A stretch of DNA of 64,000 nucleotides from Sorex araneus (lineage: Eukaryota > Chordata > Mammalia > Eulipotyphla > Soricidae): positions 152,452,919 to 152,516,918 of the forward strand of contig NC_073306.1 of NCBI RefSeq assembly GCF_027595985.1, read 5' to 3'. The notes beneath the pieces are model-generated. The model did not search any database and had not been told where the DNA came from. It worked only from the letters and a program-made list of their open reading frames with translations. Below, piece after piece: positions 4,938 to 62,697 of the stretch. Made by a program: the position numbers and the translations under genes. The stretch's first letter is position 1; each line of letters starts with the position of its first letter.

Positions 4938-5127
4938 TAACTATAATGACCCTCAGAGCAAATTGTTAGGTATTCATGGATTCAGTGTTGGTGATGATTC
5001 AGACAAAATAGCACTGTAGCACTGTTGTCCCCTTGTTCATTGATTTGCTCCAGCGGGCACCAGTAACATCTCCATTGTGAGACTTGTTACTGTTTTTAGC
5101 ATATCGAATACACCGTGGGTAGCTTGC
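4938..5127 (-). mobile_element. Type B (RTE-tailed) SINE, 5' truncated, extended 3' end
   Basis: It is inserted in L1 sequence with a perfect target duplication 'catacaatgatc' at 4926-4937 and 5128-5139. It keeps the type B tail (reverse of 'actggtgcccgctngagcaaat') and part of the RTE-5'-like body, but stops before the tRNA head. Beyond the usual tail it carries about 70 bp (4938-5010) that recurs at 14310-14384 with the same terminal nucleotide. Confidence 0.88.
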
Positions 5128-5603
5128 CATACAATGATCGAGTACCCATCCCTCCACCAGTGCCCATTCTCCACACCAGTGATCCCAGTATCCCTCCCAC
5201 CACTCCCACCCCATCCCCCCACCCCATCTCTGTGGCAGGGAATTCCCTTTTGTTCTCTTTCTCCTTTGGGGTATTGTGGTTTGCAACAGAGGCATTGCGT
5301 GCCCATTTTGTTCCATCTATAGTCTACATTCGGCACCCATCTCCCAACCCGAGTGGGTCCTCCAAATACCCTTTACTTGGTGTTCCCTTCCCTATCTGAG
5401 CTGTCTTTTCCCCCAGCATGTGAGGCCGGCTTCCAAGCCATGGATCAAATCTCCTGGTTCTTATTTCTACTATTCTTGGGTGTTAGTCTCCTATTCTGCT
5501 ACTTAGTATTTCACAGATGAGTGCGATATTTCTATGTCTATCCTTCTCTTACTGACTCATTTCACTTAACATGATACTTTCCATCATGTTAATGCTCCAT
5601 CTT

Positions 5604-6045
5604 GGACTGGAGCGATAGCACAGCAGGTAGGGCATTTGCCTTGCATGCAGCCAACCCGGGTTCGATTCCTCAATCCCTCTCGGAGAGCCCGGCAAGCTAT
5701 CAAGAGTATCCCGCCAGCACGGCAGAGCCTGGCAAGCTACCCGTGACATATTTATATGCCAAAAACAGTAACAAAAAGTCTCACAATAAAGATGTTCCTG
5801 GGGCTGGAGCAATAGCACAGTGGGTAAGGTGTTTGCCTTGCACGTGGCCGACCCAGGTTCGATTCCCAGCATCCCATATGGTCCCCTGAGCACCACCAGG
5901 GGTAATTCCTGAGTGCAGAGCCAGGAGTAACCCCTGTGCATCGCCAGGTGTGACCCAAAAACCAAAAAAAAAAAGAAAAATAAAGATGTTCCTGGTGCCC
6001 ACTTGAGCAAATAGATGAACAACAGGATGACAGTGCTACAATGAT
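5604..6045 (+). mobile_element. Type B SINE, full length, interrupted by a type A SINE
   Basis: The head 'ggactggagcgatagcacag' is followed by a B-box-like 'ggttcgattcc' at 5659-5669. The RTE-5'-like body follows ('ctcggagagcccggcaagct', 'cacggcagagcctggcaagc', 'atatgccaaaaacagtaac'). After the inserted type A element the tail resumes at 5991 with 'cctggtgcccacttgagcaaat' and ends 'ggatgacagtgctaca'. The flanking L1 shows an imperfect target repeat 'atgatacNttccat' at 5571-5584 and 6041-6054. There is no poly(A), consistent with RTE rather than L1 mobilisation. Confidence 0.9.
5802..5978 (+). mobile_element. SOR SINE, type A, young, inserted in a type B SINE
   Basis: A complete A-tailed copy with B-box-like 'ggttcgattcc' at 5857-5867, body 'cagcatcccatatggtcccc' and an A-rich tail. 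The 17-bp target duplication 'aataaagatgttcctgg' is perfect (5785-5801 and 5979-5995). It interrupts the tail of the enclosing type B SINE, so it is younger than that element, which is in turn younger than the surrounding L1. Confidence 0.95.
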
Positions 6046-6540
6046 ACATTCCATGTTGATCCACCTATATGCAAATTTCATGACTTCATCTTTTCTAACA
6101 GCTGCATAGTATTCCATTGTGTATGTGTACCAAAGTTTCTTTAACCAATCATCTGTCCTTGGACACTTGGGTTTTTGGCTGTTGTAAACAATGCAGCAAT
6201 GAACATACAAGTGCTGTTGTCATTTCTACTATACTTCTTTGCCTCTCTGGGATGTATTCCCAGAAGTGGTATTGCTGGGTTAAATGGGAGCTCATTTTCT
6301 GATCTTGTTGCCATGAATATTCTGTTCCTATAAAGTACTTCCCAGTTCTGGCCTTCAGAAGTGAATGATACAGAAGTAAATTCAACAGAATTCCAACTCT
6401 GATCTAGGTCATAATAACTCAAGGAATAAAGACTCACAAAGAGTATGTGTAGCACCTGGGTCAGTTATTCACAGAGGTGAGGAACCCTTGGGCCTTTCCA
6501 CAGGTTCTTTGAGAGGGTCTGCTAGGCCCAGCCACGTTTT

Positions 6541-6775
6541 GCAATGAAACTGGCATGCCACTTGCCTTTTTTAACTCTCCTCTCAAAAATGTAGTATAGT
6601 TTTCCAGATTGCATCAGGGGGGAGGGTGTTGTGGTCCTTGAGTGGGGGGGGGGGGTGATGCACTGGTGATGGCTATGGTGCTGGAACTATGTGCATGAGA
6701 ACCCATTAAAAGCATACAGCAAAGAAGCTCAATCATTTTTAAATAAATAAAAAATTAAAGGAAAAAATCCACAAT
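6541..6775 (+). repeat. L1 3' UTR-like end
   Basis: A G-rich tract at 6616-6655 is followed by 'gatgcactggtgatggctatgg' and an A-rich end ('aaataaataaaaaattaaagg'). This G-run, 'ggtgnnggnttggtg', A-tail layout recurs at the 3' ends of other L1 pieces here. Confidence 0.5.
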
Positions 6776-6914
6776 ACAGTAAATAAGAATCATGATAATC
6801 CAAGGAGTCTTTCATAAAGATAGACATTGAAGAGATTGCAAAAATGTAAACTAGTGTCACTCTCCTTAGCATGGTTCACTTGAGAAAGTTACTTTTCAGA
6901 AAGGCATGTTATAG

Positions 6915-7424
6915 CATTGTGTGATTGTTTTGCTGAGATTTTAAACGAATAAACATATTAATAAATACATTTGCCTATAACATACATTTGCCTACCAACC
7001 AGAGGATATTTGCATTATTTTCCGTGTAGGACTGTTACAAATAAAGCTATAAATAAAAAACTCTTGCACACAGCACTGTCTTGATTTACGATTAAGTTCA
7101 TGCAGAAAAAAAAAACATTGTAGGCTGGGATTATCATATGCCAAAACAAGCTGGCGACACCATATACTCAGGCAGATTAGGTGATTCGATCTTGATGCTC
7201 ACACGGCTGATAGCATCTCTCTCCTGCTGCCGTGCCACAGAGTACATCCCATCTAGAGAGAACTAAGTTCCAAATTCAAGGTACAGCTTTTGCCATGTAA
7301 AGGTCATTTTTTCATCATTTAAAGTTGTCATGGGTTGTGAACCATCTGCACATGTTTTTATATGTAAATGGGTTGTTGTTTCTCTGAGTATTGAGACCTT
7401 TTTGTTCAGGTTTTAGAGGGATAT
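6915..7424 (-). repeat. Old L1 ORF2/3' UTR fragment
   Basis: The stretch 'gactgttacaaataaagctataaa' and the following text read in reverse as the L1 segment near the end of ORF2 ('gctgctataaacatt...'). It is highly diverged and is split from the 7828-8290 piece by two SINEs. Confidence 0.5.
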
Positions 7425-7601
7425 GGTTTTGTTTTGTTTTGTTTTGTTTTGGCTTTTTGGGTCACACCCAGTGATACTCGGGGGTTACTACTGGCTCTGC
7501 ACTCAGGAATTGCTCGGGAGACCATATAGGATGTCGGGGATCCAACCAGGTCGGCCTCATGCAAGGCAAATGCCCTTCCAGCTGGACTATCACTCCGGCC
7601 C
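7425..7601 (-). mobile_element. SOR SINE, type A
   Basis: The (gtttt)n run at 7425-7450 is the reversed A-rich tail (AAAAC units). It is followed by 'gtcacacccagtgatactcgg' and a reversed head ending 'ctatcactccggccc'. It lies head to head with the next SINE. Confidence 0.9.
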
Positions 7602-7635
7602 AGGGAATATGTTTTTAATACGAAGTTACCCATTT

Positions 7636-7813
7636 GGGAGCTGTAGAGAGAGTACAGCAGGTAGGATAGTTGCCTTGCATGAGGTCAACCCGGCTTTGAA
7701 CCCCAGCATTGCATGTGATTCCCTGATGCCCACCAGGAGTTAAGTCCTGAGTGCAGAGCTAGGAGTAAACCTTGAGCATCGCTGGGTGTGGCCCAAGATA
7801 AAAAGAAGGAAAA
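7636..7813 (+). mobile_element. SOR SINE, type A
   Basis: Head 'gggagctgtagagagagtac', body 'ccccagcattgcatgtgattcc', tail 'gcccaagataaaaagaaggaaaa'. The target duplication 'gaagttacccattt' is perfect at 7622-7635 and 7814-7827. Confidence 0.92.
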
Positions 7814-7827
7814 GAAGTTACCCATTT

Positions 7828-8290
7828 ATAGCCCAACTGTACTATTTTTCACTCCCATCAGTTCTTTGGGGATCTGACTGTTTCCCATCCTCACCAGCAC
7901 TCTTCATCACCACTAGGTTTTTATATGTGTCATTTTAATATGCCACAGCAGTTCATTATAGCCTTAATATGAATCTCCCTAAGAGGTACTGGTGTTGCAT
8001 CTCCTTTTAAGTATTTATCTGTCCTCTTTGGTAAAGTGTCTATTTAAGATTTTGCCCATATTCTTATTTTGGATTGTTTATTTTCTTGCTATTGCCTTTG
8101 AGAGTTTTTTTTAAAAATATATTCTGAATTTAAGCATTTGGCCATATTATGAACTTATTTTTCTCAGTCTGTGTTTCTATCCTCTTAAGAGCTCTTCAGC
8201 AGAACCAACATTTTTAATTGTAATAAAATCCAATTTGTTTATTTATTATTTTCTAGATCATGCTACTGAGGTCAAAAACTAAGCACTTTA
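7828..8290 (-). repeat. Old L1 fragment (3' UTR side)
   Basis: Reverse-strand L1 landmarks include 'ttggtaaagtgtctatttaaga', 'ttttgcccatattcttattttgg', 'gcatttggccatatta' and 'aataaaatccaatttgtttatt'. They match the order of the 3' region of ancient mammalian L1 elements. Degraded, with no open frame. Confidence 0.65.
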
Positions 8291-8574
8291 GTCCTAAGAT
8301 TGGAAGTCATAAGCCATAAATATGGGAAAGTTTTTAGAGTGTAGAATAAACTCTTTTAAGGAATATATTGACAAATAAGATGGGGAAAGTGGTTATGAGT
8401 ACTAGATCCAAATTAGACAGGGAATGTGAGTTCCCAGCCAGAATATGGTCCCAGGGGAAGAAACTGAGTTTTTGGTTTTTTCTACTTTTTGTGCTTCCTG
8501 CCACTCCACCCCCCACTTCCTGTTATGTGTCATGTCAATGGGCACACAGATGTATGGGAGGAAGGCACAGAGTG

Positions 8575-9165
8575 TTTCATAGGTATGTCAAGGGAATGAT
8601 TTTCAGAATATATAGAGAACTCATACAATTCCATAGCATAAAAGAAGTAGCAACAGTAAAATAGACAAAAACCCTAAGTAGACCCTTCACTAAAGAAGAC
8701 ATATAGATGACCATAGACACATTAAAAGCACTGCTTATTTTAAGAGAAATGCAAAATAGTGAAGTGACCTATATGAAAAAAATCTACAGACAGAAAATAT
8801 TGGTAAGGATATGAAAAAGAATGTACACTGTTGGTGGAAACAAATTGATGTGGAAATGATGTGGAGAGGCCTTAAGAAAGACTAAGAAAATTCCACAAAA
8901 TCCAGCAATACCACTATTAGGCATTTATCCAAAGATATAAAAACACTTACTAGAAAATACATTCACACCCCTATGTACACAGCAGTACTATTTACAATAA
9001 CTAAAACATAGAATAAACCTAAATGGCCTTCAACAGATGACTAGACATAGAAGTGCTAGGAATACTACTCTTGTATATTGGAACACTACTTTGCCATTAT
9101 AAAATGATGAAATCATGACATTTTGGGTCAAATGGATGTACTGATACTGTCTTATAATATATTGT
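8575..9165 (+). repeat. L1 ORF2 C-terminal and 3' UTR fragment
   Basis: Recognisable L1 blocks in order: 'agacccttcactaaagaagacat', 'actgttggtggaaac', 'ccagcaataccactattaggc', 'ccctatgtacacagcagtactatttacaata' (truncated and diverged), then 'aaatgatgaaatcatgacatttt'. Many stops and indels; a dead remnant. Confidence 0.75.
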
Positions 9166-10822
9166 CTCTTCACTACCTCCATCTATTTTTTTGATATATT
9201 GTAGAACAAATTATATAGAAAGCTCATTTTGTAATTCAACAAGCCAGGATTAAAGCTTGGGTCTTTTTGTGACAAAACCCATATTCTTTTTATAAAACAT
9301 TTTGTGTTAATATGTCAAGTTGTTTTTTACAAGATAAAGGGGTCTCTGTTGATAATCAGAAATGCTTTTTCTTTCTCTATTACTCTACTTCATTCCTACT
9401 CTTTCCACCCCTCCTATCTTTTCTTTTTATTCCTTCTCTCTCTTTTTTACGACTTTCTAAATTTCATGTACTACAAAACACTTTTTTGTCTCCCATATTT
9501 GAAACTTTCTTTATAAACTAAATCCTATATGCTGAGTAGTATAACTTTTGATTTTCAGTAACTAATGCATTTACTGGCACTACACAAACACCATTCTATA
9601 GGGACCATCTGTGTGAATAAATCCTACAATAAGATAGCAAAAATCTGCTTTCTAGACCTGTAAGGAAGAGACTTGCTTTGTTATAGAGTTTTTTCTTTAA
9701 TCATGGGACTATAGTTATAAAATAAGATGAGAGTTCTGTTTTACCTGTTGATTTGAAGAACTATTTGAGTTTTAAGGTTCTGGGAAAGTTTATTATTCCT
9801 GGATTCATATTTTGCCATTAATTCAATTATTCCTTAAAAGCTTCACTTGAAAATTCATCCATGGAATTTTTAAGGCAATAGAAATTATCCCTACAACTTG
9901 AAAGTTCACACATACTGAGGGAATCTAATCTTCAATAGTCAGCTTGGTGTTAAACAGAGAGAGGAGACAAGATTTCCAGATGTTTTTCTTATTAATTCAT
10001 TCATTAATATAGGAACTTGATAAAATACGAATTCCCAGCTATGTCATGAAGCATTGTTTACCTCACAGGTTTAGGAGAAAAGACTAGACTTCTGTTAAGA
10101 GCTGAGAATGGTGCATGACGATCAGAAGGCACCTAACAATTCTGAGCTCCCTTTGTCATTATTTTCCTTTAATTCCTATCAAATAAGCTCAGATATTCAT
10201 CTCTCTCACATTTTGAGTGTCTTTGAGCAGTGCTCCCTGTGAACCTGCCTCATTCCCTGAACCCAGCTCCTGGAATTCCCATGTCCAGCTCCAGCCACTC
10301 CAACTTATGGTTTCCAATAACTTACAGTCTCTATAACATGTTTCAAAGTATGATTTTGACAACCTCTGCATCAGATAAATTGAGTAAATCAATTTGCTAA
10401 ACTTGAGAAAACATTGATGGTATTGTCTGGAATAGCTTAGCTCTATCAAAAAATAAAACAAAACAAAACCAAAAACAACAACAACAAAAAACTCTTTTGC
10501 AAGTGAGTTCTCTATCTGGTGTACGTCCAAAGGTTAAGGTTTCATAAATGATGGTTCTGTGGATCAAAGCATCTTGTCATAATCTCTTACTCAGGGAACT
10601 CAACATCAAGTCTCAGTTAAAATTCAGTTACCCCCAAGAGTTACCTCCCCTTTCACTTTGGAAAATTTTAACATATACAAAGGTATATACTGTCCTGAAC
10701 TTTCATTTACCCATCAATTAATTTCAATACTATCATCTGATGTTCAGTGTCGTTGGCTCTGTAGATCTGAGGAGTGGGGAGGATAAATAAACAGAAGATA
10801 GAACTGACTAAAGGACAACATG
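9166..10822. other. Unique AT-rich DNA
   Basis: No gene or clear repeat. A short A/C-rich run at 10449-10490 is low-complexity sequence. Open frames at 9304-9521 are leucine/phenylalanine-rich because of pyrimidine-rich DNA and are not credible genes. Confidence 0.45.
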
Positions 10823-11014
10823 GAACAGAAGATATAGTACAGCAGGTAGGGCATTTGCCTTGCATACAGCCTACCTGGGTTTGATCCCCAGCACCCATAT
10901 GGTCTCCCAAGCACCACGAGGAGTGAGTCCTGAGTGTAAAACTATGAGTAACCCCTGAGCATCACTGAGTGTGGCCCCCAAACCAAAAACCAAAAACCAA
11001 AGCCACAAACAAAA
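10823..11014 (+). mobile_element. SOR SINE, type A
   Basis: Head 'agatatagtacagcaggtaggg', body 'gatccccagcacccatatggtc' and an A/C-rich tail of 'ccaaaaa' units. A short target repeat 'aaaggacaa' flanks it (about 10810-10818 and 11014-11022). Confidence 0.85.
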
Positions 11015-11061
11015 AAGGACAATAGAAAACCCTAGATAAATTAAAAGTATTTTCTATTCTT

Positions 11062-11221
11062 TCTGGTTTTTTATCTTTTTTGTTTTTTTGGAGGTCACTT
11101 ATAGAGGTGCTCAGGGGCCAGTCTTGGCAGTGCACAAGGGACCATAGGGTGTCAGGGATCAAACTAAGAGCTCCTGGATAAAAAGCATGAACTTAGCCAG
11201 TTGAGTTACTGCTCTGCCCCT
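11062..11221 (-). mobile_element. SOR SINE, type A, diverged
   Basis: The reversed tail 'tttttgtttttttggaggtcac' is followed by 'gaggtgctcagg' and a reversed head ending 'gagttactgctctgcccc'. It lies tail to tail with the previous SINE. Confidence 0.78.
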
Positions 11222-12060
11222 TGATGAGTTTTAAAAGAAAACGATATGGTCAAAATTGCTTTAAAGCAAAGATCACTATGCTCTTAGAAGATTGGTCATA
11301 ATGGGGCAAGGATGGACTTGGGGAAACCAGAGAGGACAATGTCAAAGTCAAAGTGCCCTGGAAAAGGCATCCCTGCAAAAATACAAGGGCTGTGCTCTGG
11401 TGGTGCTCTAGGATGCAAGTTTTAACACCAGCTTGTGTCAAGAGGAAACGTTTCTTCCCTGGGAATCAGTGAACACTTCCTGCAGGATGGTTCAGTTTGA
11501 GTTTACTCTTGAAGCCAAGTTAAGATAAGTATTTCTAACTCTTCCGGTGCAAAGAGTTTAGCTAGCAAAGAACATTGTTTATAGTACATTGATAATTAAA
11601 CCTGACCCTCCAGTTACCATGCTTGAGTGACCTTCACTTGGGAGGCTCTAGCATATGTGTGTTGTTATTTTAATGAGCAGCATTTCCCTATCCCTCCTGG
11701 CCCCCAATACAAATCCACAGTTAGTCTATATGGTTCTTTGGAGTCATTACCGTGGGCGCTCACACTTCCAGCATAAAACCTCAAATGAATGTTTCTCACA
11801 AGCACTTTGCTTTCTCGTTGAGGCTGTTCAAATGTCAGTGGTTTTAGCACGGAGCTTAACCTTTACGCATTTTCACTAGAGTTTCAGAAACACAGCCTGT
11901 GCTGGATTTTCCTTACGACAGTGGGTGGGAATGTTTTATACACATAGTTATAAGCCAAGAATTCTGGTAGTGCCATCAAACTGTCTTTGAGACATCATAT
12001 ACGTTTGAGTGCTTGCAATAAAGCACTAGTAGTCCATCACACTCAAATGTTACACACAGA
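11222..12060. other. Unique non-coding DNA
   Basis: No gene, RNA or repeat recognised. Short open frames on both strands at 11655-11879 overlap and carry no domain. Confidence 0.45.
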
Positions 12061-12215
12061 ACATTTGCTTATTCACTCATTCAACAAAATATTTACCAAG
12101 GCTTTGCTGGGGAGCAAGCACTCATAGAGGTAGTGAGGGAATACAGTCCTCAACAGAAAAGAAAGCCCTGTCTTCATGGAGTTCATATTCCAGCAGAGAT
12201 TGTAAAATAGGGGGT
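12061..12215 (-). repeat. Ancient L2 LINE 3' fragment
   Basis: The order 'attcactcattcaacaaaatattta', 'ggggagcaagcactcatag', 'gccctgtcttcatggagttcat' matches the reverse complement of the L2 3' end (cattcaacaaatatttattgagc ... ccctgccctcatggagctta). Confidence 0.65.
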
Positions 12216-12324
12216 CAGGCAGTAAGCTGAGAGACTCTTGATGAGAAAATTTTAAAAAGAACTGAAATGAATAGAAGCCACATTCCAGTAGATTCCAAGG
12301 ACCAGAAAGAACTGCACTGTATGT

Positions 12325-12565
12325 TCACTGTCATCCTGTTGTTCATCGATTTGTTCGAGCGGGCACCAGTAACATCTCTCAGTGTGAGACTTATTGTTAC
12401 TGTTTTTGGCATATCCAATATGCCATGGGTAGCTTGCCAGGCTCTGCGGTGCGGGAGCGATACTCTTGGTAGCTTGCCGAGCTCTCTGAGAGGGGCGGAG
12501 GAATCGAACACAGGTCGGCTGTGTGAAAGGCGAACACCCTACCGCTGTGCTATCACTCCAGCCAT
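12325..12565 (-). mobile_element. Type B (RTE-tailed) SINE, full length
   Basis: On the plus strand it begins with the reversed tail ('tgtcatcctgttgttcatcg', 'gagcgggcaccagtaac') and runs through the RTE-5'-like body ('ggtagcttgccaggctctgc', 'agcttgccgagctctctgag') to the reversed head ending 'gtgctatcactccagcc'. The B box is recognisable ('gaatcgaacac' in reverse). There is no poly(T) at its 3' boundary. Confidence 0.9.
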
Positions 12566-12662
12566 GCTAGTGGTTAGAAAAGAATCCCAATTATCTATTT
12601 TACTTCAAAATCACTGGAAAATAATTGACCTAAATGTTTACAATATATAGTAATATATTGAA

Positions 12663-12898: not shown

Positions 12899-13139
12899 GG
12901 ACTGGAGAGATAGCACAGCGGGTAGGGCATTTGCCTTGCATGTGGCCAACCTGAGTTCGATTTCTCTGTCCCTCTTGGAGAGCTTGGCAAGCTACAGAGA
13001 GTATCCCACCCGCACGGCAGAGCCTGGTAAGCTACCTATGGCATATTCAATATGCCAAAAACAGTAACAAGTCTCACAATGAAGATGTTTCTGGTGCCCC
13101 CTCGAGCAAATCGATTAGCAACAGAATGACAGTGATACA
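12899..13139 (+). mobile_element. Type B (RTE-tailed) SINE, full length
   Basis: Head 'ggactggagagatagcacag', body 'cttggagagcttggcaagct', 'cacggcagagcctggtaagc', 'atatgccaaaaacagtaac', tail 'tggtgccccctcgagcaaatc' ending 'gaatgacagtgatacag'. It ends in a short CAGTGATA-like repeat, not poly(A). Confidence 0.92.
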
Positions 13140-13382
13140 GTTTTATATATATATATAGTTGACCTTCATTATTTTTGGATATTACTAAAATTTAATTGCA
13201 ACCCAACCTTAACATTCATAGTGCTTTCATGGTTATTGGAGATATGTGCAGAAATTTTTGAGTCACTTGGTATGTACAGTCCAGATGAGGTCCAGTCAGG
13301 CAGTCCTCATCCTTGTTTTAGCTATGAGCCCATTAAGTTCCAATTTTACACACTTTGAATTGCTTTCCCTTGGTGACTTGCT

Positions 13383-14309: not shown

Positions 14310-14614
14310 TAACTATAATGACCCTCAGAGCAATTGTTAGGTATTCATGAATTCAGTGTTGGTGATGTTTCAGACAAAGTAGCACTATAGCACTGTTGTC
14401 TCCTTGTTCATTGATTTGCTTGCACGACCACCAGTAACGTCTCCATTGTAAGACTTGTTGTTGCTGTTTTTGGCATATCGAATACACCATGGGTAGCTTG
14501 CCAGGCTCTGCTGTGCAGGCAGGGTACTCTCGGTAGCTTGCCGGGCTCTCCGAGAGGGACAGAGCAATCGAACCTGGGTTGGCCATGTACAAGGCAAATG
14601 CCCTACCGCTCCAG
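14310..14614 (-). mobile_element. Type B SINE with extended 3' end
   Basis: A full type B copy (reversed tail 'cattgatttgcttgcacg', body 'cggtagcttgccgggctctc', B box 'caatcgaacc' in reverse, head 'gcaaatgccctaccgctcc'). It is preceded by about 75 bp (14310-14384) nearly identical to 4938-5010. Both copies end at the same base, which marks a subfamily with a longer 3' terminus. Confidence 0.9.
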
Positions 14615-18866: not shown

Positions 18867-19113
18867 GGACTAAAGCAATAGTGCAGTGGGTAGTGCAGCC
18901 TTGCACTTGGCTGACCCAGGTTCAATTCTTCCATCCCTCTCGGAGAGCCCGGCAATCTACCAGGAGTATCCCACCCACACGGCAGATCCTGGCAAGCTAC
19001 CCTTGGCATATTCATATGCCAAAAACAGTAACAAAAAGTCTCACAATGGAGATGTTACTGGTGCCTGGTCAAGCAAAATCGATGAACAATGGGATGACAG
19101 TGCTACAGTGCTG
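18867..19113 (+). mobile_element. Type B (RTE-tailed) SINE, full length
   Basis: Head 'ggactaaagcaatagtgcag', body 'ctcggagagcccggcaatct', 'cacggcagatcctggcaagc', tail 'gttactggtgcctggtcaagc' ending in a duplicated 'cagtgcta' unit. The target repeat 'ccctgttaaNac' is at 18855-18866 and 19114-19125. It ends in a short tandem repeat with no poly(A). Confidence 0.92.
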
Positions 19114-37716: not shown

Positions 37717-37980
37717 GAGCACTGTAGTACTGTAGCACTGTCATCCCATTGTTCATTGATTTGCTTGAGCGGGCACCAGTAATGTCTCCATTGTGAGACT
37801 TGTTGTTACTAGTTTTGGCATATCGATAACACCACGGGTAACTAACTTGCCAGGCTCTGCTGTGCGGGCAGGATACTCTCGATAGCTTGCCAGGCTCTCC
37901 GAGAGGGACAGAGGAATCGAAACCAGATCAGCCACATGCAAGTCAAATGCCCTTCCCGCTGTGCTATGGCTCCAATCCAA
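37717..37980 (-). mobile_element. Type B (RTE-tailed) SINE, full length
   Basis: The reversed tail 'agcactgtcatcccattg', 'gagcgggcaccagtaatg', body 'gccaggctctgctgtgcggg', 'gatagcttgccaggctctcc' and the reversed head ending 'gctgtgctatggctccaatcc'. The 3' boundary is a tandem 'agtactgtagcactgt'-type repeat with no poly(T). Confidence 0.92.
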
Positions 37981-46598: not shown

Positions 46599-46770
46599 GG
46601 GGCTGGAGTGATAGCACAGTGGGTAGGGCATTTGCCTTGCATGCGGCTGACCCAGGTTCAATTCCCAGCATCCCATATGGTCCTCGGAGCACCGCCAGGG
46701 GTAATTCCTGAGTGCAGAGCCAGGGGTGACTCCTGTGCATCGCTGGGTGTGACCCAAAAAGAAAAAAAAA
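46599..46770 (+). mobile_element. SOR SINE, type A, young
   Basis: Near-consensus: 'ggggctggagtgatagcacag', 'gttcaattcccagcatccc', 'gcatcgctgggtgtgaccc' and poly(A). The target repeat 'gttttgct' lies at 46591-46598 and 46771-46778. Confidence 0.95.
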
Positions 46771-49200: not shown

Positions 49201-49249
49201 TGTCATCCCATTGATCTTCTATTTGCTCGAGTGGGCACCAGTAATGTCT

Positions 49250-52200
49250 TCATTCATCCCTGTCCCCTGCTAGTGTAGCCTAATGGAATCTGCTCACTCC
49301 AGGAACATGAAGAGCCTCAAACCGTTTGTTCAGGGTTTTGACGAATAAGTCTGACCATCTCGTAGGTTGGCAGCCATGAGGTCTTTTGAAATCCTGTAGA
49401 ATCCACATGGTAACAGCCGTCATCTCTAAATTATATTACATGTTCGGCCCATCTGATTTTTGACGCCTTGGCAAACGAGACATAGTCCCTGATTCTTGAT
49501 CGTCAACAGAGGATGGAACTCTGGATTCCTTCCCTCACTTGAGTGAAACGTGATACTCCAAGCATAGCTCTTTTGATTCCTCCTTGAGATACCCAAATAG
49601 CGTTCTCATAACTGTTTTCATAGGGTCCAGGTCTCTGAGGCGTATGTTAGTGCAGGAAGAACTGGGGAGTCAAAAAAAATGTGCCCGGAGTTGGAGTTTC
49701 TTCATCCTCTTAACCACTTCTTTGATGCTCTTGAAAGCATTCCATGCTGCTCTCTTCCTCCTGCGCAGTTCTGGCGCCAAGTTGTTCATCACGTTGAATT
49801 CTCGACCCAGGTGCACATAGCTGCTGCATTCGGAGATGTTCGTTCCATTGAGAGCAAATGGAAAGTCAGGAACTAGTTCATTCTTCATTGTCTTGGTGAG
49901 ATTCAGCTGTAGTGTGACCTTTCCACACTCGTGGTCAAAGTCGGCCAGCATTCATGCTGCTTGGATAATGTTTGGTGTTATTAGAATGATGTTATCAGTG
50001 AAGTGGAGGTGGTGCAGTTGGCGACTGTCTATCTTCACTCCAATTCCTTCCCATTCCAGTCGTCGCATGACATTCTCAAGGGTGGCACTGAAGAGTTTTG
50101 GTGAAATGGTATCGCCCCCAATAATAGTGAGTTCTTTGTTGAAATATTGAATGTAATCAAAGTAAAGTGAAAATAAAGTGAAATTTATCAGTTACACAGA
50201 CGGGATGGGGGTCTGGGGAGCTGGGGGGGGGGGAGGTATACTGTGATTCTTGGTGGTGGAATATGTGCACTGGTGAAGGGATGGGTGTTCGAGCATTGTA
50301 TAACTGAGACTTAAACCTGAAAGCTTTGTAACTTTCCACATGGTGATTCAATAAAAGAATAAATTTTTTTAAAAAAGAAAGAAATGGTGTCACCCTGCCA
50401 AACCCCTCTCTTTACGTCAATGATCACTTCCTTGTAGAATGGTGAGATCCTGGCAGTGAATCCGTAATACAGCTCATGGAGGATCCTGATGTACTGAGTT
50501 TGAACGCCCTATTTGGCTAGGGCTTCGATGACCGCTTCAGTCTCAACAGAATCAAAGGCCTTCTTTAAATCGATGAACGTTAGATAGAGCAGCATCTTGA
50601 ACTCTCACAAAACTTCAATGAGCTTGGTCATTGTATGTATATGGTCAATCGTGCTGAATCCTTTTCGGAACCCTGCTTGCTCACATGGTTGTCCTTCATC
50701 TAGTGTTCTGCCTATTCTATTCAGGATGACTTGAGTGAACAACTTGTAGATCACGAAAAACAGGCAGATTGGGTGATAGTTGCCGATGTCCTGGATGTCT
50801 CCCTACTTGTACAACAGAATGGTCCTGCTGGTTTTCCATTGGGACAGAACCTTGCCTTTAGACAGGTAGCATGTGAAGAGCCGAGCCAGTGTATGAACGA
50901 GTACTGGCAGCAGATTCTTCAGGTGTTTGAATCTGACCTTGTCTGGACCAGGTGCTGAATGCATCTTTACTGATGAAATGGCGTGTCGGATTTCTGAAGG
51001 GAGGACATTAGGAACAACATATCCATCTTGCAGAATTTGGTATGTAAGCAGGTAGGACATGGCTGTCGAAGAGATCCGGGTAGAAGTCATGAATAATCCT
51101 CTTTATTGCCCTTCTGGAAGATGTGATAGATCCACCAGGACATCGGAGGGCAGTCATCTTGGTCTTGTAGTTGGCGAAGGACAGGTGAGTGTTGTGAATA
51201 CTTTTCCCAGCTCCTGCTGCATCAGCCAACACTGCTGCTCTTCTCTCTGTGAGGGCCTCCTTTATCGCTTCTTTGCACAGCTTTCCAAGCTCGGACATCA
51301 GCTTGTGATTGCCCAAGGCTCGTGCCAAACCACATTGACGAATGAGCTCAAGAGTTTCCAAAGATAGGTGCCTGTTTGTGGCTTTCCCACTCTCAGCATT
51401 CTTCGAGCATTCATGGAGGTGCTGAACCAGTCGATCGTATTCCTCATCGATGTTGTCAATGACGGCATTTTCCCATGTTGCTGTAATAGTGCCAAAGAGC
51501 TCCCAGTTGGTGGTCCTTCTGGGAGTTCTCTTCTTAAACTTTGCAGACCTCTCTCCCCACTCTGTGAAGTAGAATTTTGCACGAAAGAGACGGTGATCGA
51601 TCCCATTTCGAATTTTGGGACAACAGCGACATCGGTCAGGCAAAACCTTTGATTGAATATGATGTGGTCAATTTTGTTGTGGAACTGTCCACCGGGAGAC
51701 TCCCATGTCCAACGTTTAGATTCAGCCTTCTGGAAATGTGAATTACCATGGATGGTCTTGATCGACATGATGAACTCAGTCTCTTACCCTGCTCGTTCCA
51801 TTCTAGGCCATGGGTCCCAATGTGGAGTTCTTCGGGCGACCTTCTCGGTCCTATCTTAGCATTAAAATCACCGATAATGATCTTGTAGAAGGTGTGGTCT
51901 TCTTTATAGAACTTCTCCAGCTCCATGTAGAACTCATCAATTTCTCTTCATCGTAGTTGGATGTTGGTGTGTAGATGACAAAGATAGAAACTGCCAGCAG
52001 TGAGCCACATCTATTCAAGCGTAATCATCTGCTTCAGCTTGTTAGGCATTTGAATGAGACAATGCTCATGGCCAAGTTTGTGTTGACAAGGACACCGACG
52101 CCACCAATGCCTCTGTTGTCGCTTGTTCCGAGGAACAGTTCTTCTTCAGTGTTGAAAATGGCATGATGTAATTGACGCCTTCTCGTTTCAGTCAGACCAA

Positions 52201-52290
52201 TGAGGTCATACTTGATCTTCTGTGCTTGCACCATCAGGTCCTGGATGGATGCTTTTGATGCCAGCGTATGTGCATTGAAAGTGCAATCAT
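49250..52290 (-). pseudogene. RTE endonuclease-reverse transcriptase ORF (broken)
   Basis: Endonuclease: 'LIGLTETRRRQLHHAIF' (52160-52210), 'IIIGDFNAKIGPR' (51845-51890) with the catalytic-type GDFN, and 'KIDHIIFN' (51656-51683). The linker 51008-51643 keeps a 211-codon open stretch. RT: 'SAPGPDK' (near 50955), 'TFIDLKKAFDSVE' (50541-50580) as motif A, then the motif C position reads 'HFTDNIILI' (49981-50015) instead of the FADD-type motif, so one catalytic aspartate is Asn. The C-terminal part has 'HLGREFNVMNN' (49800-49850) and 'LPALTYASETW' (49620-49660), ending near 49262. Stops appear near 50590 and 50510 and several frames shift, so no functional protein is made. Confidence 0.9.
50118..50380 (+). 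mobile_element. L1-tailed retroposon inserted in the RTE
   Basis: A 5'-truncated copy of the composite family: 'ttgttgaaatattgaatgtaatc', a G-rich tract, 'cactggtgaagggatgggtg', 'ccacatggtgattcaataaaag' and an A-rich tail. The 15-bp target repeat 'gaaatggtNtcNccc' is at 50103-50117 and 50381-50395. The two mismatches are compatible with one CpG-type change and one other transition. It is younger than the RTE insertion. Confidence 0.92.
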
Positions 52291-52404
52291 TTTAGTCCTT
52301 CTTCGTTTTAGTAGTCTAGTTCATCCCTGAGATGTTATCAGCCTCTCTTTGCTCATCCTTCGTAACACTGCCATGTTGGGGGCTCTTTTGGTGTCAGGCA
52401 AATG

Positions 52405-52545
52405 AGGCCCATTGTTGTTACTGTTTTTTGCATATCGAATATGCCACAGATAGCTTGCCAAACTCTGCCGTGTGGGCGGGGTAGTCTCGGTAGCTTGTCG
52501 GGCTCTCTAAGAGGGATGGAGGCTTTTAGGGTGGCCTCCAATCAC
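52405..52545 (-). promoter_or_regulatory. RTE 5' end, shared with the type B SINE body
   Basis: In sense (minus strand) it reads from 'ccatccctcttagagagccc' through 'cacggcagagtttggcaagc' to 'gatatgcaaaaaacagtaac'. This is the type B SINE body without any tRNA head before it or SINE tail after it, and it runs straight into the RTE coding part. It is probably the RTE 5' UTR or promoter; that role is inferred. Confidence 0.75.
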
Positions 52546-52554
52546 CCTTACAGG

Positions 52555-52640
52555 TGTTCTCATACGTAGTATGTATATATGATATACTCATATGTAGTAT
52601 ATATAATATATTATGTATATATTATATTATGTATTAGTTT
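52555..52640. repeat. AT-rich tract at the 5' side of the RTE
   Basis: TA-rich sequence resembling 49060-49200 and sharing the exact 24-bp segment (52617-52640). Confidence 0.85.
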
Positions 52641-55250: not shown

Positions 55251-55269
55251 AAATTTCGTTGTAATTAAA

Positions 55270-55460: not shown

Positions 55461-56380
55461 CTAAATTCTGATTAATAATTTTAAACTTTCTTGCCTGTCT
55501 GTCTGTACAGAATGAAGCTCAAAATTCATTATTGAAGAGATTACAATTTAGTGAAGAACTGTAAATATATATGTATATACAAATAGTAATGATAATAACC
55601 TGAGTTCAATATTTATTTCCATAGATAAAAACATTAGAGAAGAGCAAATAAATAGAAATATTTTATTACCAGAAGTTTATATTAGAATTTGAATTCAGTG
55701 TTTGTTATTACACCATTTTTTATATATGTCAAACAAACATTTATCTTGTCAAATATTTTTTTGTTTCACAACTTATGTCATTTTTTAAAGCAAGTGCAAA
55801 TCATTGAGGAGGTGGTCTAAAAAGATCAGAAGCAACTCTATTTCTTACAAGTCTTAATATGCACTTAGCATCTTATATTTAGTATTTTTAGATTTTCTAT
55901 TTCCTCTGATGTCAGTTTTAGTGACCTATGTTCATTATAGTCACCTTTCCAATTTATTTTCATATCATTATGCAAAGCTGTTCATAATATATCTTTTTAT
56001 GTCTGTTATTATTTATATCTTATAATTTAAATTGTGTACTCATTTTGTTCTCCTGACTGCTACTCATTGGAATCTGTTTATTGTGGACCATCTTAAAAAC
56101 TCATTAGTTGTACAATTGCTTTTAATTAAGTTACTTTTTGCTTTAATTGTTATTTATTTTTTATTCATGGCCTGTCTTCCCTATTTTAATTCTTTTATTT
56201 TCAAATATTCTTTATTTAAATGTGTTCACTTTTCTCAAGATATAATTGGGTTTTGTTTTCTAATTCAGTTGTACTTTTGATTTTATGGTATTTAGCTCAT
56301 TTCCAGTTTCTGATATGTTAATATGCCAATTATAGACACATTAGGATGTTGTATAATGATATGCTTTCTATATGTATAAA
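55461..56380. other. Unique AT-rich DNA
   Basis: Very AT-rich; no gene recognised. Parts may be ancient L1, but I cannot show it. Confidence 0.4.
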
Positions 56381-56384
56381 TTTT

Positions 56385-56545
56385 CTTTGTGGGGGAGATG
56401 GGAGTTTGACACATCCAGAGATGCTCAGTACATATTCCTGACTCTCAACTCATGAATCACTCCAGGGACCAGGAGTGAGCCTTGAGCAAGCTAGGAGTGG
56501 TTCAAAGACCAAACACCAATCAAACAACCAAAAAAAAAAAAAAAC
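56385..56545. repeat. Fold-back SOR SINE remnant
   Basis: The left part (56385-56462) is reversed 3'-half SINE text ('cacatccagagatgctcagt', 'catgaatcactccaggg'). The right part (about 56463-56545) is forward 3'-half SINE text ('caggagtgagccttgagcaag', 'gtggttcaaagacc') ending in poly(A). The same half therefore appears in both orientations. Confidence 0.6.
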
Positions 56546-57070
56546 CAGTAAGATTTTAACTACTATGTAACACAGCAATTCCACTTCTTGGCATGTAAGC
56601 TAACAGTCCAAAAACTGTATTCCGATAGATATTTGTATGCCTATGTTCATTGCAGTGCTATTCCCAATAGCCAAAATGTGGAAACTCGAGTGTTCAAGAA
56701 CAGATGACTGGATAAATAAATTAGTAAATATACATAACAGAATCCAGTTTGTCTATAAAACGATGAAATCTTGCGATTTTTTTCTATGTATACAGATCTG
56801 AGAGTATTACGCTGAGTGAAATTTGTCAGAAGGAGAGGGACATAGACAAAATAACCTCTCATATGTGGGATATAATGAAATATAGTAAAAGAATAGCAAA
56901 TACCCAAAGGCAACAGAACCTAAGAACCAGTCTACAGTAATGAGTTTGCCGTGGAGGTGTGGGCAGGGACAGGGGGACAAGGGTGGGGTGACTAGGGGGT
57001 AGGACACTCTGGGGGGGCAGTTGCTCTTGAAACATTTTATGCATGAAATTGTCATTAATAATATTGCTAA
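56546..57070 (+). repeat. L1 3' fragment
   Basis: 'cacagcaattccacttcttgg', 'gttcattgcagtgctattccc', 'gtgaaatttgtcagaaggag', 'cctctcatatgtgggatata' and a G-rich stretch follow the L1 3' order. Dead. Confidence 0.78.
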
Positions 57071-57149
57071 TCATAGTGCCTAGAATTGTTTATAAATGGT
57101 TTTAAGTAGAGGTTCATAGAAGCCATACATTCAGAAATGTTTTTTCTGA

Positions 57150-57308
57150 GACCAGGGAGATTTCCTACCAGACTGGAGCACAAGCTTTGTATGCAGGAAC
57201 TCTAGATCCAATCCCCAGAATTACATGTTCCCCAATACCACCAGCAGTGGCCCCTGAGCATTAAACTAGGAGCAGTTCCTAAGCACACTGCATGGGGCCC
57301 AACAGCCA
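57150..57308 (+). repeat. Old SOR-like SINE
   Basis: 'ctagatccaatccccagaatta', 'caccagcagtggcccctgagc' and 'gagcagttcctaagcac' show a diverged type A body. Confidence 0.65.
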
Positions 57309-57535
57309 GTACGAACTTTTCCTCATGTATTTTGTAGCTGAACTAAATCTAAAATTATTGGATTTTATTTTCATGTAAGGAAACATAGTCCTTGTTAAAT
57401 TTTCATTCAATCTTCCTAACTTCCAAAGCTTCTTTCTGTCTTGGTATCTTACTAGTCCCTTATACTGCCTGTCCAATCAGGTCTTTTCAGTTTGTTTTCA
57501 TTCCTTCTTGCATCTCATTCCCATCTCGTTCTGTG

Positions 57536-57606
57536 GGGAGTCAGGAGTGATCTCTCAGGAGCACAGAGTCCAGAGCCCATAGCCTATCCAGGTGTGGCCA
57601 CAAGAC
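57536..57606 (+). repeat. SINE 3'-half fragment
   Basis: 'gagtcaggagtgatctctcagg', 'gcacagagtccagagccc' and 'ccaggtgtggccacaag' resemble the 3' half of type A only. Confidence 0.5.
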
Positions 57607-57802
57607 AGAAGATCCAACTTGCTCTATGAATCCAGCCACCCCAGATTCAAAACCATACCTTCATCTGCCTCATTGGCTTCTATTTTTCTCTCCATCCCAC
57701 TGGGACTCCCCCCCTACCCATTCCTTTCTGTTTTTATTTCCTTCTTTCTTTTCTTGCTTTTTAAATTTTTTTCTTTCCTTTTTTCTTCTTTTTTTTCTCC
57801 TT

Positions 57803-57964
57803 TTTTTTTGGCAGGGGGCACACCCAGCAGTGCTCAGGGCTTCTGGCTCTGTAAGAGAGATCAGTCCTGTTGGGCTTGGGGGACCATATGGGGTGCTGGC
57901 GATCGAACCCATATCAGCCGTATGCAAAGCAAGTGCCCTCCTCGCTGTCCTATTGGCCTGGCTC
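57803..57964 (-). mobile_element. SOR SINE, type A
   Basis: Reversed tail of Ts, 'gcacacccagcagtgctcagg', 'gggggaccatatggggtgctgg', 'gcaagtgccctcctcgctgtcc'. Moderately diverged. Confidence 0.88.
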
Positions 57965-57969
57965 TTTCT

Positions 57970-59125
57970 TACTTTATTTCTGTTTTGAGAAGCATAACTG
58001 CTTCTCTTTCTTTTCTGGAAATGGGAACTGATTTAATAATTTTATTATGGAATGAATTTCTCTTGCTGAGTAGACATTTTTTCCGGGTTCTATTCTACAA
58101 TAGAATAAAATAAAAAAAAAATCCTAAGTGAGAGAAAAGTCATCTTGTGTTGATTGTGGTTTTCTCTCTTTCAGATTCCTCTTCGTTGGGAATAAGCACC
58201 TTCCGAGACTTGATTGCCTCATTGCAACTAGTTAACCCTGTCTCTCGGGCTTAGAGATTGAATTTAAGACAAAAACACATGAAAATAAATTAAGGTTTTT
58301 GTGAGAATCAAGTGAGTTAACGAGAAGGACAGCCGTTTTAAAAGTTTGATAAATTGTGCAACCAATGGTTCTCACTAATAGGAAAATTCAAATAAACTTT
58401 GCGACTCTTACCCAGATTTTTCATTTCGTCAAAGCTTATTTTATTAAATACATAGTAGCATGCTTTCAGCAATAAAAATCAATGAAGACTGCTGTTTAAA
58501 TTTCTAATATGTGATGAACTCAATTTATTCCAGCTTTTGTTTATTTAGTTTGTGACATGCCCTTTCTCAGTACTGTGAAGTGTGATTTAAAGGTTTCAGT
58601 CAGTCTCATAAATTTCTTTACCATACTTTTAGGTGGTAAGACAAATTTCTATGTCTACTTATGGTCCCTGGCTTCTTTGAGTATGAATTTAATAATAAGC
58701 TTTCTTATTAGCAAATAACTCATAGTAATCCCGTTAGTCATAAGTGGTGGGGACAAAGTCCTACTCGGCTTTATAATAGTGGCATCCAGGAGATGAGTAG
58801 GACTTAGTTTCTGTTTGTTTCTATCATGAAACCCAACACCTGAACTTTGTCTTTTTCAGTCAGTTATGGTTATTGCTAATTCACAGTAATGCTTGGTATT
58901 TTTGGAACAATTTCTTGAGATATATTTTAAGAAATTAAGGCAACCTTAAATAATATAGTAGGATGCTACTACATAAAAGCTCAGCTGTAGCTATTTTCTT
59001 GATACAAGGGTAAAAGTCACCTTATTTTGATTTCAAAAGCATTAGTTTTATTTTATTTAGATTTTTATTTAAAATTTCTCTTGAACTTTCAATAATTTCT
59101 TTGTTAATTTCCAAAAAGTAGATAG
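57970..59125. other. Unique non-coding DNA
   Basis: No gene or repeat recognised. Confidence 0.45.
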
Positions 59126-59129
59126 CAGC

Positions 59130-59670
59130 TCTCCGCTGCTGCATGACCATGGCCCCAGAGGCCAGCTAAACTACTTTGGCACCAGCAGCTTCTTGCAGAA
59201 ATGTCTCTAGACTATGAACTGAGCCACAGCCGCCATCTTATGACGACCACAAAAGGGAGGTACGAGCTTGCGGTGATGCAATTTCTGGCAGGAATTTCCC
59301 TGGACTTAGTTACTAAAATATAGAAATCCAAAACTGCACAGCTGCGATATCTCTTCATTGTCAGCAATGGAAAACAAATTGTCAAATGCTTCCTTTTCAA
59401 CAGGTCTGACTTTGGGGGGGAGGACTCCAAACAATAATAGAGAGTTTTTTTGTTGAAATATTGAATGTAATCAAAGTAAAGAGAAAAGTAAAGTGAAATA
59501 TATCAGCTACACAGGTGGGGGTGGGGGTGGGTTGGGTTGGGAGGTCTATTGGGGTTCCTGGTGGTGGAATATGTGCACTGTTGAAGGAAGGGTGTTTGAG
59601 CATTGTATAACTGAAGCTTAAGCCTAAAAGCTTTGTAACTTTCCACATGGTGATTCAATTAAAAAATTTA
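59130..59670 (+). mobile_element. Composite L1-tailed retroposon, third copy
   Basis: It shares 'gatgcaatttctggcaggaa', 'cagcaatggaaaacaaattg', 'ttgttgaaatattgaatgtaatc', 'gcctaaaagctttgtaac' and 'ccacatggtgattcaatt' with 39433-40573. 5' truncated relative to that copy. No convincing target duplication could be read, so the 5' limit is approximate. Confidence 0.8.
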
Positions 59671-60217
59671 AAGAAAATAAAATAAAGTTAACTTTGGTAA
59701 CAGAAAAAAATGTAGATATTTAATATTAAAATAAATATTCAATGTATTTAAAGTGCATGACCCTATTTTGATATTATATGTATGTATATATTTCCAACTA
59801 AACACACATATATATTTTAAGTAAAATACATATTAAATCCTTATGATGCTTTATAAAATTTTTATCTATTTTAAAATAAAATACTTTTATAATAGAAAGT
59901 TTTGGAAGATACTTAAAAATGTCAAGACACTCATTAAAGAAGCGAAAAACAAAATAAAACAATAAATAAAATAAAATAAAATACAATGCAACTGACTACA
60001 ATAAAGAATTATAGATTTCCTGACTGCATAATAAAAAGCTAAAGTGCTCAAATGAAAAAAAACATACTTCAAAAATATAAGTGGGGAATGAACAGAAGCA
60101 AAAAAGCAACTGACTACAAATAATACAAAGAGAAGCTCTGTCTCCATAGCAATTGGCAAAATGCAAGCCAAGATTTTTTTTAAATGTCATCTAATTGATT
60201 AACAGTTTGAGGGAGAA
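59671..60217. other. AT-rich DNA
   Basis: A/T-rich with short (AAATA)n at 59955-59985; no gene recognised. Confidence 0.45.
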
Positions 60218-60229
60218 AAAGTTGGATTG

Positions 60230-60533
60230 ACCCGGGAGGAAGCATAACATGACACTCGCCATAACTATGCCGCTGGACCCCGTGCCAAGCTGGTGCATTT
60301 GGGGTACCCCAGACCCACCCCAAGGGACCCAGCCCTGGCAGCAGAAAATCTCCAGAACTCAACTGCCACCATGTTCACAGCTGCTCTCCACATGCTTGCG
60401 CCAAGCCTCGCCCACGAGTGAACCTATTCCTGGACACTTCATAGGACACACCACCCATATTCCAAGAGAACTGCACCACATTTGATGGGGCTCAAAGTAT
60501 GAGGCAACCAATCTTAGAGGGAAATATATTTTT

Positions 60534-60592
<59 letters not shown>

Positions 60593-60924
60593 GCACACAC
60601 AAGGCTCAACCTTCAACAACATATTAGTGATCTCTTATAGGAGGATTTGATGGCCCCTGGGTGAAATGCAACAGTCTTCACACTCTCTCCCTTAGAGGAA
60701 ATAGTGGACACTTTTTTGTAGCATTTTCAGCATTTTTTTCATACAAACAATACAAAATATATTATTTCGGTTCTGTTTTGGGACAGGGATTAGGGTTCAG
60801 GATGGAAACATCCAAAATATGGTGGTGGGTGGGAAGGTGTAATGGTAGTGGGATTGGTGTTTGAATACTAAATGTAATCAAATATTGTGAACTACTTTTA
60901 TATATAAAATTTAAAAAAAAATTT
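60230..60924 (+). mobile_element. Retroposed 695-bp cassette with L1-like tail
   Basis: Bounded by a perfect 12-bp target duplication 'aaagttggattg' (60218-60229 and 60925-60936). The 5' part (60230-60490) is GC-richer and unlike the other families here. A (CATATA)n run lies at 60533-60592. The 3' part has 'gatggaaacatccaaaatatgg', 'agtgggattggtgtttgaat' and an A-rich end like the L1 3' UTRs. No coding frame with a domain. It is either a non-autonomous L1-dependent element or a chimeric L1 product. Confidence 0.75.
60533..60592 (+). repeat. (CATATA)n microsatellite
   Basis: About ten nearly perfect hexamers inside the retroposed cassette. Confidence 0.96.
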
Positions 60925-61059
60925 AAAGTTGGATTGGATAAAAAAATTAAGTTTGAGCAATGAAAAATTTAAGCATGTTAATCAAAGGAAACTCTTGAAG
61001 AGTAAAAACGGACACAATTTTATCAAGTAATTTGGCATTTGCTCGTACAGATTAACCTT

Positions 61060-61350
61060 TGCATATCTGACAGACCATAATTTTTTCATACTTATCCAAG
61101 AGAAACTTTTTTACCAGTATACCATGAGATGTGTAGAAGAATGCTCTCAATAATACTACTCAAAATAGCAAAAAAAAACAACAAAAAAATGAGAGTTATG
61201 CAAATGTGCATTACCAAGAAAGTGGATAAACTCTGTCATAGAGTCACATTTTCATGGAGCAATGAAGACAAATAAACCCTATCTACATATTATTGAAGTA
61301 CCCTGTTGCTGCACTACTATATATGGGTGATGCAACATAAAGTGAAGAAA
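61060..61350 (+). repeat. Old L1 fragment
   Basis: 'ccaagagaaacttttttacc', 'gaagaatgctctcaataata', 'ggataaactctgtcatagag', 'ggagcaatgaagacaaata' recall the L1 3' region, strongly diverged. Confidence 0.5.
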
Positions 61351-62535
61351 GGGAACCACAACCATAACAAATAAATAAACAATTAATTTACAATGGCCCA
61401 AGCACCCACGAACCAAGGTTCATGGGCCATGGATATTAGCAAGGACTGCAATCAGTTCTCTTGTATGCACACTGTGAACAAATCTTAAAAGATGAATTAC
61501 CTTATTATATTTTTCACAAAGAAATAAAACTTAATTTTGCTTCACAGGTGGCATTTTAAGATTACTTACTAAATATATACTTCAGTCGCCCCATGCTCCT
61601 TATTCTGAATATTTTGGCTTCATTCTGCTTGTACCCAGATGTCAGTAATTATACTTTAAGTAGTTTCTTTCACTCAATGTCTACTTTTTCCTGATCTGTC
61701 TTTCTCTATGTCATTATTTTTTAAGTGACAACTCAACATGTTCGTCGAGGCTTTTTTAATGGAGGCATACTTTTTTTTGAACAGATAACAGAAATGCAAT
61801 GAAAATAAAAGATATGGAGAAATGCAAGAAAGCACAGAACTCAAACACGAGATTTAATTGACTCATATGCCCACTCCATTTCACATATGGTTTTACTTAA
61901 AAAGTCCGTTTTTCCTTTCTTGTTCATTCCCACAAAACAATTGCTATTAAGAATTCCTTTGTTTTTTAATTTGTTTAAGCTCATTATGTAAAGTTTACCA
62001 ACATAACCCAATAGTAAGTACCTAGAAGGCAAGGAGTGCATTTGGAGCTGATGTTAGTATGTTACCCAGTGCCCTGGAAGCTCTATTGCAGGTTGGATGT
62101 GTCTATGTGCTCCAGTGCTACAGGCATTGATTCGCAAGACTATTCCCTGCAACCTTCCCTGGAGGGTTGCCCTTGAGCTAAAAGGACTGGCTTGGAGTTT
62201 GTCTCCACTGCAACAGCCAGCAGCCAAAGATTGACCAATGCAAGCACAGAAAAAAACTCTTGCCTTAGAGCTGCGCAAATTCAGTGGTAACAAATTACAC
62301 TTGGAAACTTCCCCCAGGATAAAACTGAGGGTAGATTTGGCTTTCCTTAGCATCTTCTGCTCTCTTATCCTTTATTACTCCCTTACAGAGTTCTCCTGAG
62401 AGCATGTCCTTCATAAATCACTCACGCATGAGTTCCCTTCTCAAGCTCTGACTCTAGAAAACCTAACAGTTATTTACCAAAATGTATATCGTCTGAAATA
62501 TTGAACACAATGGTTGGAACAGAATAGAACTTGGT
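61351..62535. other. Unique non-coding DNA
   Basis: A 99-codon open frame on the minus strand at 62054-62353 has no domain I recognise. No gene is called. Confidence 0.45.
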
Positions 62536-62547
62536 ACTTCTCTATTG

Positions 62548-62697
62548 GGGCTGGAGCGATAGCACAGAGGTAGAGCGTTTGCCTTGCACATGGCCGACTG
62601 GGGTTGGATTCCTTGCCCCTCTCAGAGAGCCCGGCAAGTTACCGTTACTGGTGCCCACTCAAGCAAATCGAGGAGCAACGGGATGACAGTGACAGTG
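62548..62697 (+). mobile_element. Type B (RTE-tailed) SINE, internally deleted, young
   Basis: A perfect 12-bp target duplication 'acttctctattg' (62536-62547 and 62698-62709). The head is near consensus ('gggctggagcgatagcacag'). The body runs only to 'gagagcccggcaagttac' and then jumps to the tail 'gttactggtgcccactcaagc', so about 80-90 bp of the RTE-5'-like body is missing. The 3' end is a CAGTGA repeat, not poly(A). Confidence 0.94.

Follow-up and report, generated by a model that had tools for sequence, protein, structure and literature searches.

In a 64,000-nucleotide (nt) stretch of the genome of the shrew Sorex araneus (NCBI RefSeq assembly GCF_027595985.1, contig NC_073306.1, positions 152,452,919 to 152,516,918 of the forward strand; hereafter the window, numbered from its first letter), we find a family of short interspersed elements (SINEs), here called type B, that very probably arose from a local head resembling alanine transfer RNA (tRNA-Ala) and the two ends of a long interspersed element (LINE) of the RTE1_Sar type. 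An original prediction made from this sequence had recognized eight type B copies with a body and a tail resembling those of an RTE element, and re-reading of the sequence together with blastn of the RTE ends and the SINEs confirmed all eight. In the 256-nt consensus that we built from these copies, positions 1–66 form the head, which is identical at 61 of 66 positions to the head of the window's poly(A)-tailed SINE family (nine copies aligned). Positions 65–175 align without gaps to a block in the 5' region of the RTE copy (52522–52412, 96/111 identical), positions 183–236 align, likewise ungapped, to its 3' end (49254–49201 on the minus strand, 46/54 identical), and the seven nucleotides between the two RTE-derived parts (176–182) are filler. 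Homology to the poly(A)-tailed family ends at consensus position 66, and homology to the RTE starts at 65. Local alignment scores were 147 for the body and 68 for the tail, against maxima of 28 and 27, respectively, among 1000 mononucleotide shuffles. With this one RTE copy as reference, type B has a bipartite layout in which a part from the RTE 5' region is followed by the RTE 3' end. The matches originally predicted in the RTE are real, but their exact limits lie slightly inside those first proposed.

The head is predicted to be of the polymerase III type. ARAGORN identified a tRNA-Ala (TGC) in the head of one of the eight copies, that at 5604 (5610–5681, plus strand), and another tRNA-Ala in one poly(A)-tailed copy (46604–46676). 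Past consensus position 236 there are short units resembling CAGTGCTA, and such CAGTGCTA/CAGTGA units close the type B SINEs, which have no poly(A). The prediction had described these endings as a mark of RTE-mobilized elements; they do stand at the ends of the SINEs, but the end of this RTE copy carries at most degenerate units, for example CAAATGATA and CAAGTTATA, as judged by eye. Copies are 85.6–90.6% identical to the consensus, a range that understates divergence because only eight copies were used. The eight had also been taken to share one build, which holds for the six in which all three parts are present (the head of the 14310 copy being incomplete) but not for the 4938 copy, a 5'-truncated element without the head and the first part of the body, or for the 62548 copy, from which most of the body is absent. 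Besides the eight copies, blastn detected nine head-only matches in the window.

The RTE copy itself (49201–52557, minus strand, limits approximate) is essentially full-length but dead: its reading frame shifts, it contains stops, and the 3' end of an L1-like element is inserted in it. When its best-matching protein, a nematode-type sequence of 946 amino acids (aa) here called P0001, was aligned to it by tblastn, aa 4–946 were recovered in six pieces that change frame and hold 14 stops in total; some pieces overlap, and the last begins within the inserted DNA. Pfam detected RVT_1 in the copy (6.6e-12) and no endonuclease domain in this broken sequence, and P0001 has both Exo_endo_phos and RVT_1 domains. 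Through the alignment to P0001, the copy has the features of the RTE clade, namely one open reading frame (ORF) with endonuclease and reverse transcriptase and a short 3' end. Homology to the ORF extends to 49199 at the 3' end, and the last ORF codons (49201–49254, minus strand) are what the RTE shares with the SINE tail. At the other end, the ORF starts directly after the 5' block shared with the SINE body (52412–52522, minus strand), and with this block the element measures about 3.1 kb, the insertion excluded. The body had been equated with the 5' end of the RTE; it does come from the 5' region, but about 35 nt further upstream are absent from the SINE, up to the limit at about 52557 where AT-rich DNA starts (judged by eye). 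Similarly, the coding part was said to be missing from the SINE, which is correct for the interior and incorrect for the tail.

Protein searches with the RTE copy place its closest listed relatives in nematodes. A 215-residue part of the copy, with stops given as X, was compared with a database of 5.8 billion proteins at E up to 0.001 and gave 343 matches. Among the best 120 listed, every row showing an organism named a strongylid nematode, although some rows, including the two best matches, had no name or a cut name. The genera were Haemonchus, Ancylostoma, Necator, Heligmosomoides, Nippostrongylus and Angiostrongylus, all six of which belong to Strongyloidea in the NCBI taxonomy (one species per genus was checked, six of the seven species named). 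The best match was 76% identical over 99% of the query, and the highest identity among the matches listed was 81% over 63%. RTE1_Sar was reported from S. araneus and nine nematode species, was argued to have been transferred horizontally, and is, according to its authors, the third RTE known to move between parasites and hosts (Dunemann & Wasmuth 2019, PMC6542046). Based on its closest listed protein relatives, which are strongylid, and on its presence in a mammalian genome, the RTE of the window matches the RTE1_Sar type. The words SINE, UTR (untranslated region) and non-autonomous do not occur in that paper's main text.

The C-termini of these nematode-type proteins strongly indicate that the SINE tail belongs to the RTE lineage. 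The last 40 residues of 24 of 121 proteins (those ending in DDR, ESR, EDR or EHR) served as tblastn queries against the window, with an E limit of 0.01. Each of the 24 matches the RTE end, and seven of the eight SINE tails are matched as well, by 18 queries each at the 4938, 37717 and 62548 copies, 12 at 12325, 10 at 5604, 8 at 14310 and 6 at 12899. There was no match in the window at this threshold outside the RTE end and the SINE tails, and 120 shuffled C-terminus queries gave none at all. Because the C-termini match at the RTE end and at the SINE tails and the shuffled queries do not, the tail comes from the RTE and not the reverse. Furthermore, since the ORF extends nearly as far as the RTE 3' end, the SINE tail is former coding sequence.

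For the body, the evidence is concentrated at the ORF-side edge of the 5' block. In nine of the 120 listed proteins the N-terminus is extended by more than 50 residues; by their names, six of these come from Necator and three from Haemonchus. The extension of one of them, P0028 of Haemonchus contortus, is collinear with the ORF-start region of the RTE (52264–52431, minus strand), which overlaps the block by about 20 nt; tblastn aligned it to 52431–52264 with 55% identity over 56 aa (E 1.5e-16). On its ORF side the block ends at 52412, an edge that this match spans, and on that alignment the edge is therefore native to the RTE. The edge encodes AKNSNN, in register with the nematode N-terminal extensions. 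The agreement of shrew AKNSNN with Haemonchus ARNSNK was equalled by 4 of 10^6 random draws and that of shrew YAKNSNN with Necator HAKNSNR by 0 of 10^6, two results that are not independent and that concern a stretch picked after inspection. When the first 60 residues of P0028 served as the query, only P0028 itself and one further Haemonchus protein were matched.

Other searches with this region were less informative. The idea that the upper block is recognizably like the Necator extension is unsupported, the shuffle test described below being not significant. With the back-translated motif EACNLPV, which was picked after inspection, six of the eight best places in the window lie within type B SINEs; 23 better places rank above the RTE, and three longer stretches did no better, with 243, 159 and 381 better places. 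Patterns of the SINE tail and body were not found in viral_contigs, and with an alignment of ten relatives as the query no nematode or shrew DNA was found in genome_contigs or viral_contigs. In Rfam, nothing in the window reached the gathering score, and two weak matches close to the 5' end of the RTE are unrelated. Within the block there are also two related units, GAGCCCGACAAGCTACCGAG and GAGTTTGGCAAGCTATCTGTGG, together with an inverted repeat, GCATAT TCG ATATGC, which is found in the SINE consensus too and is a possible RNA structure or protein site.

Based on these alignments, the formation of type B can be pictured as follows. An RTE copy, or its RNA, would have lost its interior, and the RTE 5' block would have been joined to the local SINE head immediately downstream of its B box, with the whole block being standard in shrew RTEs. 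The tRNA-Ala-like head would supply an RNA polymerase III promoter, from which polymerase III would make the SINE RNA, and the RTE protein would recognize the RTE 3' end of this RNA and use the RNA as template for reverse transcription into a nicked target site. Because the 3' end is common to both elements and the SINE tail has no poly(A), we infer that type B is mobilized in trans by the RTE. The alignments of the head and of both RTE ends support the original proposal of an internally deleted RTE that captured a local SINE head.

The individual copies carry insertion marks of uneven quality. Target-site duplications were scored against 200 random placements, whose 95% level was 7.0 (maximum 9.0), and the threshold is exceeded in four of the eight copies. 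The duplications are 12/12 (score 12) around the 4938 copy and its 3' extension (4947–5127, minus strand), 12/12 (score 12) at the 62548 copy (62548–62696, plus strand), 9/9 (score 9) at 18867 (18867–19113, plus strand) and 15/18 (score 7.5) at 5604. The last of these copies (5604–6048, plus strand), recovered by blastn, by alignment to the consensus and by its duplication, is interrupted at about 5801–5981 by a poly(A)-tailed SINE that is itself flanked by a 17/17 target-site duplication, so that the type B tail lies downstream of the insert at about 5982–6048. Since the poly(A)-tailed SINE is inserted in this copy, its family was active after this type B insertion. Should the loss of the body from the 62548 copy have preceded its insertion, the body would be unnecessary for movement.

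The 4938 copy and the 14310 copy (14310–14614, minus strand) have about 70 bp in common beyond the SINE tail, diverging directly after ATTATAGTTAG. They are identical at 176 of 195 positions across SINE and extension, and the 12/12 duplication of the 4938 copy is placed outside its 3' extension. The common extension looks like a 3' transduction from a single source element, or else like the mark of a subfamily whose 3' end is new; such extra 3' sequence is odd for an element thought to require the RTE 3' end.

Several observations weigh against the origin and the mode of movement that we favor. The window holds a single RTE copy with the 5' block, and the upper ~85 nt of the block rest on it. 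The block upstream of AKNSN does not resemble the Necator extension significantly, as its score was equalled by 35 of 300 shuffled peptides against the SINE body and by 110 of 300 against the RTE; when the peptide included AKNSN, 6 of 300 did so against the SINE body and 137 of 300 against the RTE, whose stretch stopped at 52431, short of the AKNSN codons. In addition, the translated 5' region matched no protein up to E 10, and none of the 24 C-termini matched the tail of the 18867 copy. As to insertion marks, the 5604 duplication is separated from the head by about 15 nt, and four of the eight copies have no duplication above chance level: 12325 (12325–12557, minus strand), 12899 (12899–13151, plus strand, beside a TCTA microsatellite), 14310, and 37717 (37717–37976, minus strand), where the duplication is 6/6. 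The RTE copy has a 7/7 duplication in AT-rich DNA, and its score of 7.0 merely equals the 95% level, for which reason we dropped it as evidence.

Two of these points would be accommodated if the 5' block had arisen in a shrew SINE and then entered the RTE, whether throughout the shrew RTE lineage or in this copy alone, for instance through a template switch while the copy was inserting. That only one RTE copy with the block is at hand, and that the likeness of the upper block to the nematode extension is not significant, would both be expected. Nevertheless, we consider this direction unlikely given that the ORF-side edge of the block is collinear with the nematode N-terminal extensions and that about 35 nt of non-SINE sequence lie between the block and the AT-rich flank. 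Furthermore, a search of 400 bp on either side, with positive controls included, gave no signal of a SINE head upstream of the block on either strand and none of a SINE tail downstream of it on the RTE strand, as the prediction had held. The same result led us to reject the block as a neighboring SINE, on the sides tested. A window with eight type B copies and nine head-only matches is SINE-rich enough to invite the thought that an independent SINE fragment landed beside the RTE by chance, but such a fragment would have to end inside sequence conserved with nematode RTEs and, by coincidence, complete an element of about 3.1 kb without the insertion whose ORF starts directly after it, which makes this explanation scarcely credible.

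A different question is whether type B copies were moved by L1, with the RTE pieces being mere ancestry. The poly(A)-tailed SINE whose head type B shares was, to judge from its tail, probably moved by L1, and the RTE copy contains an L1-like 3' end, but type B copies end in units like CAGTGCTA/CAGTGA and not in poly(A), and mobilization by L1 appears quite improbable to us. The L1-like 3' end lies at about 50117–50386, in the opposite direction to the RTE, and has a 13/15 duplication (GAAATGGTATCGCCC / GAAATGGTGTCACCC); its label was read off its sequence. Our preferred explanation is still a SINE composed of a local head and two RTE ends and moved by the RTE protein.

Among shrew SINEs, Borodulina and Kramerov reportedly described in 2001 the Sor SINE, said to be of the T- class. 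The poly(A)-tailed SINE of the window is probably Sor. Type B has its head in common with this probable Sor but differs in the body, and Sor has a poly(A) tail; type B has neither the body of the window's probable Sor nor its poly(A), its similarity to the consensus of nine poly(A)-tailed copies stopping at position 66. Sor is mentioned in three papers (PMC11240701, PMC7279448, PMC10137851). In the titles, beginnings of abstracts and passages that we covered in the open-access literature, outside which most subscription journals lie, we found no link of a shrew SINE to an RTE, and Repbase, Dfam or SINEBase may annotate the pair. The layout of type B is already known from other animals, and what is apparently undescribed in the open-access literature covered is the type B family of shrews, with its connection to a nematode-transferred RTE. 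With a SINE partner, the RTE1_Sar transfer would have a multiplied effect on the genome, and many type B insertions would help to time this transfer across shrews. Type B would also add an independent case to the question of why RTEs repeatedly yield SINEs from both of their ends.

The closest parallels come from birds, hagfish and other mammals. The AviRTE SINEs (ManaSINE1, GymnSINE, BuceSINE, ManaSINE2 and MeloSINE) combine a head with a bipartite tail whose two parts derive from the 5' region and the 3' region of AviRTE, an element that moved horizontally between birds and nematodes (Suh et al. 2016, PMC4844689). Type B is like them in that its head is followed by a 5' and a 3' part of an RTE that passed between nematodes and vertebrates. 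They differ in belonging to another RTE, found in filarial nematodes, and in having heads from tRNA-Glu, 5S rRNA or 28S rRNA or GC-rich heads; moreover, their 3' part is described as 3' UTR, whereas that of type B is the end of the ORF. In hagfish, SINE1-1_EBu and SINE2-1/2-9/2-10_EBu carry bipartite RTE sequence behind a head, their birth is proposed to have involved internal deletion and chimera formation, and bipartite non-autonomous elements are called common for RTEs (PMC7245038). Type B shares this order of head and bipartite RTE sequence, but the hagfish SINEs have 7SL or other heads and hagfish RTEs.

Among mammals, the SINE/LINE pairs in PMC3747384, in which neither shrew nor Sorex occurs, include Bov-tA, RTESINE1 and Afro SINEs. 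RTESINE1, MAR4 and RTE1-N1_LA resemble type B in joining a part from the 5' end of an RTE to an RTE tail, with no tRNA head listed there. Table 1 of the same paper gives Bov-tA as a tRNA-Glu head with a Bov-B tail and Bov-A2 as a part from the 5' end of BovB with a Bov-B tail. These ruminant elements differ from type B in the tRNA-Glu head and in their LINE, which is Bov-B. Beyond what the table lists, Bov-tA also contains a Bov-B 5' part. We raise, tentatively and with more doubt than confidence, the possibility that a LINE which crossed between roundworms and a mammal begot a mammalian SINE whose ancestry, apart from the tRNA head and seven filler bases, lies entirely in the worm LINE, and that RTE1_Sar would be the third horizontally transferred RTE with a SINE made from both of its ends, after BovB and AviRTE. 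If true, this third case would suggest that retention of the RTE 5' block is no accident and that the block makes the SINE RNA easier for the RTE protein to use.

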